A stretch of 64,000 nucleotides of DNA, from contig JAUWGW010000007.1 of the NCBI GenBank assembly GCA_030606215.1, forward strand, positions 1-64,000. Reading direction: 5' to 3'. Within the stretch, counting starts at the first letter, position 1. Each line of letters begins with the position of its first letter. Source of the DNA: a bacterium. Its GTDB lineage: Bacteria; NPL-UPA2; JAUVJM01. Below, in pieces: positions 49,554 through 55,571 of this stretch. A program made the translations under genes and the position numbers. The notes under the pieces are model-generated. The model was not told the DNA's origin and did no database searches. It saw only the letters and a list, made by a program, of their open reading frames with translations.

Positions 49554-49581
49554 TTGACAAAAACGCTGTGCGGTGTATAAT
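49554..49581 (+). promoter_or_regulatory. Promoter of the VapBC pair
   Basis: TTGACA at 49554-49559, a 16-bp spacer and TATAAT at 49576-49581. TGTATAA occurs twice (49575 and 49589), a possible operator. GGTGTATAAT (49572-49581) is identical to the -10 region of the MazEF-type promoter at 15902-15911. Confidence 0.65.
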
Positions 49582-49608
49582 GTAGGATGTATAAAGGAGG
49601 TGAGAACC

Positions 49609-49866
49609 ATGGGTAATTTACATCGGACTCAAATCTACATTGAGGAAGATCAAATGCACCAGCTCAAACTTGAAGCAGAGAGAGAACACCTCGCTGTGTC
49701 TAAATTAATCCGCCATGCGATCGACCGGCTCTTAAAAACAAGGGCCAACAATATTGACTGGGACAGGGACCCTCTCACCAAAGCCATTGGCAAGATTAAA
49801 CTCACGGTAACTAACGCCGCTGTGGATCACGACCACTATTTATACGGGCGGAGAAAAAGGAGATGA
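49609..49866 (+). CDS. VapB-type antitoxin (ribbon-helix-helix)
   Basis: An 85-residue protein. 'HRTQIYIEEDQMHQLKLEAE' is the ribbon and first helix, 'LAVSKLIRHAIDRLL' the second helix, giving a CopG/RHH DNA-binding dimer. The tail ends with 'AAVDHDHYLYG', a sequence commonly found where such antitoxins bind PIN-domain toxins. The start is ATG 49609 with AGGAGG 9 bases upstream; the frame is open to 49573. It ends 3 bp before the VapC start. Confidence 0.85.
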   Translation: MGNLHRTQIYIEEDQMHQLKLEAEREHLAVSKLIRHAIDRLLKTRANNIDWDRDPLTKAIGKIKLTVTNAAVDHDHYLYGRRKRR

Positions 49867-49869
49867 TTT

Positions 49870-50277
49870 ATGGAAAAGGTATTTGTAGACACCAGTGGTT
49901 GGGTAGCCCTCTTTGTAGCAAATGATAAAGATCATAAAAAGGCAGCTCCCATTTTTGATGACCTTAAGCGGTTAAAGGTGCTCATTTATACCTCGGACTA
50001 TGTCATTGATGAAACCATTACAACCATTTTGGCAAGAGGAAACCACAAACAATCTGTCTTTGCAGGCAAAGTTCTCCTCACAAGTGAAATCATCAAGATA
50101 GTGCATATTTTCCCAGACTATTTTCAAAGTGCCTGGAAACTTTACCAAAAGTACAAGGATAAAAATTTTAGTTTCACAGATGTTACCTCCTTCACAGTAA
50201 TGAAGGATCTCAATATCAACAGGGCTTTTGCTTTCGATAGAGAATTTATACAGGCGGGAATCGAACTGATAGGATAA
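49870..50277 (+). CDS. VapC-type PIN-domain ribonuclease toxin
   Basis: A 135-residue PIN-domain protein. The acidic metal site is complete: Asp7 in 'VFVDTSGW', Glu48 in 'YVIDETITTI', Asp104 in 'FSFTDVTS' and Asp123 in 'AFDREF'. VapC enzymes cut tRNA or rRNA at single sites. It looks intact. A further short ORF on the same strand follows 5 bp later. Confidence 0.92.
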   Translation: MEKVFVDTSGWVALFVANDKDHKKAAPIFDDLKRLKVLIYTSDYVIDETITTILARGNHKQSVFAGKVLLTSEIIKIVHIFPDYFQSAWKLYQKYKDKNFSFTDVTSFTVMKDLNINRAFAFDREFIQAGIELIG

Positions 50278-51196: not shown

Positions 51197-52315
51197 ATGA
51201 AAGCAGTATTGGTGTTAGAAGATGGCAGCACATTTCACGGTCTCTCAGCAGGAGTAGTCGGAGAGAAGGTAGGAGAGGTTATTTTAAATACTGCTGTTGT
51301 TGGGTATCAGGAGATTATGACAGATCCGGCAAATGCCGGTAAGATTTTGGTTTTGACATATCCCTTGATAGGTAATTATGGTGTAGCCAAAAAATTTTCC
51401 GAGTCCGGGAAATGCTGGTTATCTGCACTGGTTATAAAAGAAAACAGCAACATGTATTCCAATTGGCAAGCAGAGGATACTTTTAGCAATTTCTTGAAGA
51501 AAGAAGGTCTTGTTGCAATGAGTGAAGTTGATACAAGGACATTAACTGTTAAGATCAGGGATAGCGGTCAGATGCTTGGAATAGTTTCAAGTCAAGAGGT
51601 AAAGAAAAGTGCCCTGCTTAAGAAACTGAAAGACTATAAAAGAGAAATGAAAAGAGATTTTATAAAAGATATCTCTGTAAAAAGGATTAAACAAATTAAG
51701 GGGAATCCTTCAGGCCCAAGAATAGCCATACTAAATTTGGGAATCTTGAATAGTTTTCTTGAACAATTAAGGGAGCTTGGATGCAATCTTACATTGTTAC
51801 CCTATAACACTGATGCAGACAAAATTCTTGGATTGAATCCCGACGGTTTAATTATTTCTAATGGGCCGGAGGAAGATGAGGCAATTTCTAAAATTGTAGT
51901 GGTAGTTCAGAAACTCCTCGGGAAAATTCCCATTTTAGGTATTTCTACCGGATGTGAAATTATTTATCTTGCTTTGGGAGGAAAGCTTAAAAAGATGAAG
52001 ATAGGTCACCATGGCTTAAATTATCCGGTGCGCTCACCCGAATCATATAAAGGTGATATCACAGTTCAGAACCATTCATATGCTTTAGATGAGAATTCTT
52101 ACCCATACCTATCTCTTCCCCAAATCCCCCTACCCCCTTTACAAAAGGGGGAGAAAGGGATTAAAATTACCCTGCGGAATGTCAATGATAACTCTATTGA
52201 GGAGATAGAGAGTCTACCGTTAAAGTTTATCTCCGCCCAGTACTATCCGGTAAGTCCCGGGTCTGGAGAGGTGAATGAATTATTCATAAGGTTTTTGAAG
52301 TATGCCAAAGCGTAA
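51197..52315 (+). CDS. carA: Carbamoyl-phosphate synthase small subunit, glutaminase triad lost
   Basis: A 372-residue CarA by its N-terminal domain ('[15 protein letters not shown]', 'TYPLIGNYG', '[13 protein letters not shown]') and position before carB. In the class I amidotransferase domain the nucleophile motif, normally Gly-Ile-Cys-Leu-Gly-His, reads 'GISTGC' with Ser250 at the Cys position. The His-Pro-Glu motif reads 'QYYPV' (Tyr350, Val352). The 'NGPGDP' loop is 'NGPEED'. It should not release ammonia from glutamine. About 18 residues after '[12 protein letters not shown]' are read from a palindromic repeat. The frame is otherwise intact, so it is probably kept as a structural partner of CarB. 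GAGGG precedes the ATG. Confidence 0.88.
52120..52163 (+). repeat. Palindromic repeat inside carA
   Basis: CCCCCTTT-ACA-AAAGGGGG (52133-52151) is the core, flanked by AATCCCCC on the left and AAGGGATT on the right. It is translated in frame as '[13 protein letters not shown]', a peptide often produced where this type of dispersed repeat has entered genes. Confidence 0.65.
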
Positions 52316-55300
52316 AGATATAAAGAAGATTTTAATGATAGGCTCTGGTCCTATTATTATAGGACAGGCTTGTGAATTTGATTATTCTGGTTCTCAAGCC
52401 TGTAAGGCTTTAAGAGAAGAAGGTTACTTTACAATCCTTATAAATAGTAATCCGGCTACCATTATGACAGACCCTGACATGGCAGATGTGACATATGTTG
52501 AGCCGCTTACAGTAGAAGTTATTACTGAGATAATAAAAAAGGAGAGACCTGATGCCATTCTACCTACATTGGGTGGTCAGACAGGGTTGAACCTTGCCTA
52601 TTTTTTGATGAGGGAAGGTATTCTAAAAAAGTATGGGGTAGAGTCTATAGGGGCCAGTGTTGAGGCTATCTCAAGAGCTGAAGATAGAGAACTATTCAAA
52701 AAGGCAATGCGAGAGATAAACATAGACACTCCAAAAAGCGGCATTGCTACAAATCTAAGTTCCGGTGTAAAGATTGGACTTGAAATAGGGTTCCCATTAA
52801 TTTTGAGGCCTGCGTACTGTTTGGGAGGAAGCGGTGGTTCTACTGCTTATAATAAGGAGGAATTGGAGGAGTTTTTGGTAAAGGGACTTGAGATAAGCCC
52901 GGTCCATCAGGTGTTGGTTGAACAATCTGTATTAGGGTGGAAAGAAATAGAGTACGAGGTAATGAGAGACTGTGTTGATAATGTTATTATGATTACTTCT
53001 ATGGAGAATGTTGATCCAATGGGGGTGCATACCGGTGATAGTATTGTAGTTGCGCCATCCCAGAGTGTAAGCATGAATGAGTACTCAAATTTTGTGAATC
53101 TATCCAGAAGGATTATAAGGAAGATCGGTGTAGCGGGAGGGGGTGCAAATATTCAATTTGGCCAGAATCCGGATAATGGACACATTGTGATTATAGAGGT
53201 TAATCCGAGACTTTCAAGGAGTTCAGCCTTGGCGTCCAAAGCTACGGGTTTCCCTATTGCAAGGGTTGCTACAAAGTTGGCTGTTGGCTTGACTCTCCCT
53301 GAAGTTCTAAATCAGATTACGGGAAAGACAACATCGTTCTTTGAGCCGACGGTTGATTACTGCGTATTTAAGATCTGTAGATTTACTTTTGAAAAATTTC
53401 CTCAGGCTCAAAGGGTTTTAAACACATCTATGAAGGCAGTTGGTGAGGCAATGTCTATTGGCAGGAATTTCAGGGAAGCGCTTCAGAAGGGAATAAGGTC
53501 TACTGAAACAGGTAGGTCTGGACTGGGTTCAGACGGAAAAGACAAAATTACGGATGAGGTGTTAGAATCAGCATCAGAGGATTTGATTGAGGAAATAAAG
53601 AAAAAAATAAGGATTCCCAGCGATGAGAGGTTATTTTATATCAGGTATGGTATTAAACTTGGATTAACAGTTGATGAGATTTATGAGCTCTCAAAAATTG
53701 ACAGGTGGTTTATAAATAATATGAGGCAGATTGTAGAATTGGAGGAAGAGATAAAAAAGTTCAGGATTAAGGATTCAGGATCCCGAATCCCACCGGAGTT
53801 GCTCAGGAGGGCGAAGATGAACGGTTTCTCAGATGCACAGCTTGCTTATCTGCTAAATTCAACGGAGAGAAAAGTTCGTTCCTTACGAAAAAAGCACAAT
53901 ATAGAGGCAGTTTATAAATTGGTAGATACATGTGGAGGGGAATTTAAAGCGAGCAAACCTTACTATTATTCTACATATGAGACCAGGAACGAGAGTGAGC
54001 CCTCTCAAAATAAGAAAGTTCTTATCCTCGGAGGTGGACCTAATAGAATAGGGCAGGGGATAGAATTTGATTATTGTTGTTGCCATGCTTCCTTTGCTTT
54101 GAAGGAAGAAGGAGTTGAAAGCATTATGGTAAATTGCAATCCGGAGACTGTCTCTACAGATTATGATACTTCAGACAAGTTGTATTTTGAACCTTTGACA
54201 GTTGAGGATGTATTAAATATTGTAGACATTGAAAAACCTTTCGGTGTAATAGTTCAATTCGGAGGTCAGACTCCTTTGAACATATCCGGGGAACTCGCGA
54301 AGGCGGGAGTGAAAATCTTGGGGACCAGCCCTGATTCTATAGACAGAGCAGAGAATAGAAAAAGATTTCAACGGACGCTCAAACAATTGCAACTCATTCA
54401 GCCTGATAATGGGATAGCAGGCTCGTTCGAAGGAGCAAGGAAGATTGCTGGAAGAATAGGATATCCGGTAGTGGTAAGACCTTCTTATGTCCTCGGTGGT
54501 AGAGCTATGGAGATAGTCTATGATGACGAGGACTTAAATGGTTTCATGGAGAAGGCTGTAGAGGCATCTCCTGAGCGTCCAATTCTTATTGACAAGTTTT
54601 TGGAGGATGCGATTGAGGTCGATGTGGACGCAATTGCAGATGGCAGGAAGTGCGTGATAGGCGGGATTATGGAGCACATTGAGGAGGCAGGAATACATTC
54701 TGGCGACAGTGCAATGGTCATTCCTCCATATACGCTGGGTAAAGATATAATAGAAGTTATAAGGGATAATACATACTTGCTTGCAAAGGAATTGAATGTA
54801 AAGGGATTTTTGAATATCCAGTATGCTGTCAAGAATAATGTAGTCTATGTCTTAGAAGTGAATCCAAGAGCAAGCAGAACAATCCCGTTTGTGAGTAAGG
54901 CAATAGGAGTTCCTCTGGCAAAGTTAGCAACCAAGATAATGCTCGGGAGGACACTCGAAGAATTGGGTTTTATGAAGGAAAAGGAAATAGAGCACGTGGC
55001 GGTGAAAGAATCCGTATTTCCTTTTATAAGGTTTCCTGGTGTAGACGCAGTTCTCGGACCGGAGATGAAATCGACGGGGGAGGTCATGGGAATTGATTCT
55101 ACATTCGGTGTAGCTTATGCGAAGAGCCAGATAGCTGCCGGGCAAAAGTTGCCGAAGAAAGGAAATGTATTTGTAAGCGTGAAAAACCAGGATAAGAGAA
55201 GTATAGTTTTCATTGCTAAGAAGCTTGTTGATCTTGGCTTCAGGATTATGGCGACTTCGGGTACGGCAGATGTCCTTAAGAAGAATGATATAGAAACAAA

Positions 55301-55571
55301 AGTCCTTCCTAAACTTCATGAAGGGAGACCCAATATCATTGATTTAATAAAAGATGGCAAGGTAGAACTTATGATAAACACTCCTGCGGGAAAAGCAACT
55401 AAGGAAGATGAAACAAAGATAAGGTCTCATGCGATTCTCTATGGTGTTCCTCTTATAACCACGATTGCTGGTGCTGAGGCTACTGTCAACGGAATTGAGA
55501 ATCTGGTTAACAGGAAAAAGATGGGTGTGAAATCGTTACAGAAATATCATGAGCCAGTGAAAAATTCTTGA
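52302..55571 (+). CDS. carB: Carbamoyl-phosphate synthase large subunit
   Basis: A 1089-residue synthetase that makes carbamoyl phosphate from bicarbonate, ammonia and two ATP. It has the duplicated ATP-grasp build: N-half '[17 protein letters not shown]' with '[10 protein letters not shown]', oligomerisation region, C-half '[17 protein letters not shown]' with '[11 protein letters not shown]', and a C-terminal MGS-like allosteric domain (about 940-1080, '[13 protein letters not shown]'). All seems intact, in contrast to its CarA partner. It overlaps carA by 14 bp. Carbamoyl phosphate feeds pyrimidine and arginine synthesis. Confidence 0.97.

Follow-up and report, generated by a model that had tools for sequence, protein, structure and literature searches.

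A bacterial carbamoyl-phosphate synthetase whose small subunit has lost the glutaminase triad and which probably no longer uses glutamine

The stretch of 64,000 nucleotides analysed here (the window) carries, at positions 51197-55571, a carA-carB gene pair that probably encodes a two-subunit carbamoyl-phosphate synthetase (CPS) no longer using glutamine. The glutaminase triad is absent from its small subunit, and the same lesions recur in a clade of proteins from uncultured bacteria. Because the triad-less CarA is the sole CarA in 16 of the 46 genomes that encode it and lies in pyrimidine operons in about 20 loci, carbamoyl-phosphate synthesis from ammonia only would be the best reading of this enzyme. 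The features on which this reading rests are collected in Table 1.

Table 1. Features of the carA-carB pair, in window coordinates (Ec, residue numbering of the E. coli protein).
Feature	Position	Strand	Basis
carA-like gene, 372 aa (D-type CarA, without the glutaminase triad)	51197..52315	+	Pfam PF00988 and PF00117; alignment
N-domain loop: Ec Met36 to Val34, Ser47 to Ala45 (glutamine contact), Tyr48 to Asn46	51296..51334	+	alignment; clade counts
NGPEED in place of NGPGDP; Ec Gly243 to Glu225	51860..51877	+	sequence; clade alignment
Ser250 (codon TCT) at the nucleophile position, Ec Cys269; motif LGISTGC	51944..51946	+	direct reading
Insert of about 14 residues (303-316), window only, disordered in the model	52103..52144	+	model; relatives
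Tyr350-Pro351-Val352 against His-Pro-Glu of CarA; Glu column deleted	52244..52252	+	alignment
carB, 1089 aa	52302..55571 (52302-55568 plus stop)	+	both ATP-grasp halves, oligomerisation (D3) and MGS (allosteric) domains complete

As the first-pass annotation of this DNA had stated, the carA frame is open and CarB is complete. The end of carA is overlapped by the start of carB, and CarB has all of the catalytic residues checked. Direct reading also bears out the letters that it had reported, namely Ser250 in GISTGC, Tyr350 (TAT, 52244-52246) and NGPEED. Compared with E. coli CarA (NC_000913), Cys269 has become Ser, His353 has become Tyr and Glu355 is deleted (QYYP-VS vs QFHPEAS); the Glu is thus lost as first described, but not through replacement by Val352 (GTA, 52250-52252), since every one of the 51 clade members lacks a residue in its alignment column. 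The glutamine pocket has also been altered, with Ec Ser47 changed to Ala45, Gly243 to Glu225, Leu270 to Thr251 and Gly313 to Ser294. With 329.9 bits, the window CarA exceeds the curated cut-off (307.35) of TIGR01368, the model for the glutamine-hydrolysing CPS small subunit, so automatic annotation would name it glutamine-hydrolysing; the Cys-His-Glu triad and the Ser47/Gly243/Gly313 pocket of the protein that this model describes are both missing. An AlphaFold2 model of the window CarA has a pLDDT of 91.1, and its best PDB matches in Foldseek are E. coli CarA chains (TM 0.86-0.88), followed by the N-terminal part of human CPS1. The occurrence of E. coli CarA point mutants among the best matches was given no meaning beyond the common fold.

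Two local features of the window may be recorded here. A near-palindrome, CCCCCTTTACAAAAGGGGG, lies within carA at 52133-52151 and overlaps the in-frame insert of about 14 residues that relatives lack; it resembles a small dispersed repeat, and no other copy was found in the window or in the loci of other genomes. Shortly upstream of carA, at 49573-50277, inspection by eye showed two ORFs, the first small and DNA-binding-like, the second PIN-domain-like, which together read like a VapBC toxin-antitoxin pair.

Profile and collection searches recovered at least 51 distinct proteins of the triad-less clade, mainly from Candidatus Omnitrophota, with others from Ratteibacteria, RBG_13_61_14 and other MAGs. 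No triad residue is left in 50 of these 51 CarAs, the nucleophile position in each being occupied by a residue other than Cys; the remaining protein (L111:6213-7283) is the sole member with the nucleophile Cys and is likewise devoid of the His and Glu. The full triad is kept in 33 of 33 CarAs from the half-CarB set described below and in 45 of 46 other CarAs. Gly243 is replaced by Glu throughout the clade (51/51) and is Gly in all 79 ordinary CarAs, while the tunnel position Ec 293 is Val in 43 of the 51. In the N-domain loop, Val is found at Ec Met36 in 51/51, Ala at Ec Ser47 in 44/51 and Asn at Ec Tyr48 in 49/51, these counts coming in part from a collection scan whose pattern favoured NTAVVGYQ. 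At 13 alignment columns, the triad-less clade and the other CarAs are fixed for different residues.

In the CarA tree the triad-less proteins form a single clade (SH-aLRT 100), and their cognate CarBs likewise form one fully supported clade. Nine close pairs of clade CarAs gave dN/dS values of 0.06-0.18; the triad-less CarA is therefore not decaying, and is a folded protein under purifying selection. About 50 independent assemblies show the same lesions, as do RBG_13_61_14 and a relative from the same family (G001, CarA 76% identical). This recurrence answers the concern about sequencing error raised in the first-pass annotation and, together with the dN/dS values, rules out error, chance or a pseudogene as the origin of the lesions.

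The large subunit has remained intact. Wherever the contig goes on, carB directly follows the triad-less carA; all listed catalytic residues of both CarB halves are invariant where covered, full-length copies keep every one checked, and most of the UMP/IMP and ornithine residues are retained, the roles of all these residues being those of the E. coli enzyme. In one locus (L201, G318:C78) the partner carB has an in-frame TGA close to where its two halves meet, which reflects either a split gene or an error. In Omnitrophota, the pyr-operon loci repeat the order pyrR-pyrB-pyrC-x-x-carA-carB-fpg-x-pyrK-pyrD-pyrF, in some cases cut short by a contig end; Pfam confirmed it in locus L131.

From these observations, we infer that CarA and CarB form a complex in which ammonia is used without a glutamine stage. 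CarA would be a pseudo-glutaminase, retaining the CarA fold, docking CarB and shaping the way into the first ATP-grasp site, and incapable of binding or splitting glutamine. Free ammonia would go in directly, the N-half of CarB would form carboxyphosphate and carbamate, and the C-half would phosphorylate the carbamate. The resulting carbamoyl phosphate would pass to ATCase, and to OTCase as well in genomes with no CPS but the triad-less pair. For wild-type E. coli CPS to use ammonia, concentrations must be very high and are likely unphysiological (PMC6245113). This counts against the ammonia reading, which predicts that a true ammonia enzyme should have a better Km for ammonia.

The genomes in which no second CarA was found (MAGs, in which incompleteness could hide some carA) carry no half-CarB either, with the exception of a fragment in G408, and 12 of the 16 have two matches to the ATCase/OTCase family. 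The same picture is given by G215, which is 96% complete and has one CarA (E<=1e-60) and one CarB. Given that it is accompanied by no other CarA in these genomes, and in 12 of them by two transcarbamylase genes, the triad-less pair very probably serves as their CPS, with free ammonia as the nitrogen source. If the pair made no carbamoyl phosphate, the CPS genes searched would offer these cells no visible way of obtaining it.

The genome to which the window belongs (1.52 Mb, 34 contigs, 92.9% complete) presents a different arrangement, in that domain searches found two CPSase small chains. The second CarA (contig C30, 18011-19249, minus strand, 412 aa) has NGPGDP, GICLGHQ and HPEA and is followed by a CarB of 546 aa. 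This CarB ends in ...YYYSTYEAEDESRM, and its alignment to E. coli CarB covers residues 1-553, which comprise the N-half plus the oligomerisation domain. This CarA and half-CarB (L017:16340-19249) are followed by guaA, hisH, hisF, pyrG and purF, and two glutamine synthetase genes are also located on C30. The first-pass annotation had said that its reading would be refuted by another intact carA in this genome; one is present, yet it stands beside an N-half CarB only and is not part of an ordinary CarAB. Since the intact CarA coexists with the triad-less one, the ammonia-only claim is well supported by sequence for the enzyme and is not supported for the whole cell. The original proposal of an ammonia-only, two-subunit CPS with a structural CarA accordingly stands for the enzyme, in view of purifying selection, the complete CarB, the genomes with a sole CarA and the pyr-operon setting, but not for the organism, with its intact CarA and glutamine synthetase genes. 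Further points against the ammonia-only reading are that no Amt transporter gene was found in this 92.9% complete assembly and that the window carAB lies outside the pyr operon, which is located elsewhere (pyrRBCKDFE) and contains no car genes. The missing Amt gene would also fit, weakly at this completeness, the ammonia-rich anaerobic life suggested in the first-pass annotation.

In 31 genomes, the window genome included, the gene after an intact carA encodes just the N-half of CarB (about 550 aa), and a second CarA is present in about two thirds of the 46 genomes with a triad-less CarA. The usual neighbours of the half-CarB are pyrG, gltB/gltD, guaA, purF/purL/purQ, glmS or hisHF, and all of its active-site residues are kept. 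No separate gene for the C-half of CarB was found in the window genome assembly; within the half-CarB set such a gene is present in G318 alone, in the pyr operon directly after pyrC, and outside the set it also occurs in G150. In G182, pyrR-pyrB-pyrC stands beside the same neighbouring gene as in G318 and the position after pyrC is empty, and this comparison suggests that the C-half has been lost. The sequences thus suggest that an Aquifex-like split enzyme lost its C-half where a full CarB took over. Searches showed that the half-CarB genomes also carry a C-half-bearing protein, which is fragmentary in a few. The CarA and half-CarB of C30 may constitute a small homodimeric CPS or may help the full CarB. 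It is possible, and is put forward only tentatively, that such cells have two enzymes for carbamoyl-phosphate synthesis, the one an ammonia-only, allosterically regulated full CarAB that has a pseudo-glutaminase and serves the pyrimidine pathway, the other a minimal CPS fed by glutamine, in which CarA is joined by a CarB N-half doubled for both ATP-grasp steps; the glutamine-free type would also have arisen separately in gut bacteria.

The presence of both CarAs in the window genome and about 30 relatives, and the fact that the intact CarA has just half a CarB as its own partner, would also fit an exchange of subunits, in which the intact C30 CarA docks the full window CarB and feeds it glutamine-derived ammonia while the triad-less CarA acts as a competing or regulatory subunit. 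This is unlikely, however, as the triad-less pair is kept where no intact CarA was found, its carA is placed directly before its carB wherever the contig goes on, and the CarA and CarB clades match. It is equally doubtful that a dedicated ammonia source, such as another glutaminase or a glutamate dehydrogenase, docks the pseudo-glutaminase and feeds the tunnel with no bulk ammonia being used. A glutamate dehydrogenase gene does lie directly downstream of the triad-less carAB in G001, and glutamate dehydrogenase-like genes directly precede two full-length CarBs that have no adjoining CarA (L217 and L224), but no such gene is constant next to the clade and none is found in the pyr-operon loci. 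A third reading, in which the pair decays or has a different product and carbamoyl phosphate is left to the CarA and half-CarB, has in its favour the second CarA set of the window genome and the ability of half-synthetase dimers to make carbamoyl phosphate in other organisms (PMC6022934), but is very improbable given the strong purifying selection, the complete CarB sites, the pyr-operon position, the C-half-bearing protein of the half-CarB genomes and the persistence of the pair without a half-CarB in the single-CarA genomes.

The criteria that define CPS I include N-acetylglutamate as an activator. The window enzyme appears to work like a CPS I without being a member of that class, as its two subunits and its link to pyrimidine genes indicate. 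It resembles vertebrate CPS1 in the change of Cys to Ser, the GISTG motif, a pseudo-glutaminase kept as structure, a changed residue at Ec 293 and, presumably, ammonia as the donor, and differs from it in having separate subunits encoded by two overlapping genes in place of one fused chain, in also lacking the His and Glu, in its association with pyrimidine genes instead of the urea cycle, and in mostly keeping the bacterial UMP/IMP and ornithine residues of CarB. Human CPS1, an ammonia-only enzyme with a Cys to Ser change (Ser294, Thr295), is described as having lost the Cys alone (PMC4655335), and the first-pass annotation was thus right that the change in the window goes further. The tunnel of human CPS1 is blocked by Gln318, which corresponds to Ec Gly293, and in E. 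coli CPS blocking or perforating the tunnel leaves the activity on external ammonia normal (PMC4655335). At Ec Pro360/His361 the clade has Phe and Asp/Asn; a perforation of the tunnel there was considered as an ammonia entry but given no weight, because the alignment beside the deleted Glu is loose.

With E. coli CarAB, a CPS II, the window type shares the carA-carB gene pair, the fold, the domain order and all CarB catalytic residues, and it is distinguished by the missing triad and the rebuilt glutamine pocket. The C30 CarA with its free CarB N-half is more akin to the split CPS of Aquifex aeolicus (GLN, CPS.A, CPS.B) and the small CPS of Methanobrevibacter smithii; unlike in Aquifex, it is not accompanied by a separate C-half gene in the window genome. 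Isolated synthetase halves of Aquifex can carry out both partial reactions, and the 41-kDa CPS of M. smithii works as a dimer (PMC6022934).

CarAs without Cys269 also occur in the ruminant gut (L138-L153, L159, L160, L166 and L167), with Gly, Ser or Asp in its place, in Clostridia, Oscillospiraceae, Rikenellaceae/Alistipes, Erysipelotrichaceae and Acholeplasmatales. These proteins of Bacillota, Bacteroidota and Mycoplasmatota, which were picked by pattern and may be under-sampled, form a fully supported clade of their own, separate from that of the window, and sit in pyr operons of the order pyrB-pyrC-carA-carB-pyrK-pyrD-pyrF. The M36 to V change that they have in common with the window clade was not counted as separate support, since NTAVVGYQ was itself a selection pattern of the collection scan. 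Two further lineages have Gly at the Cys269 position with no carB recognised alongside, one in Akkermansia (L155-L157) and one in Thermoguttaceae and an uncultured planctomycete (L162, L163 and L165).

No earlier report of a CPS from Omnitrophota or of a glutaminase-dead bacterial CarA was found in the open-licence PMC literature. Glutamine has been described as the physiological donor for bacterial CPSases generally in a recent review (PMC6245113), and as being used by every CPS type but CPS1 in the paper on the human CPS1 structure (PMC4655335); more than 50 bacterial enzymes without a glutaminase site, many of them encoded in pyrimidine operons, would by their sequence contradict both statements. 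NCBI's current model would label the triad-less CarA as glutamine-hydrolysing. Through the coexistence of this CarA with a CarA and half-CarB, the nature of the minimal synthetase becomes open to test, and the triad-less pair itself offers a two-subunit system for direct testing of the step to CPS I, in which glutamine use is lost and the glutaminase is kept as a scaffold. For the organisms themselves, the findings suggest that dozens of uncultured bacteria start pyrimidine synthesis from free ammonia, a use of ammonia so far described only for the urea-cycle enzyme of animals.
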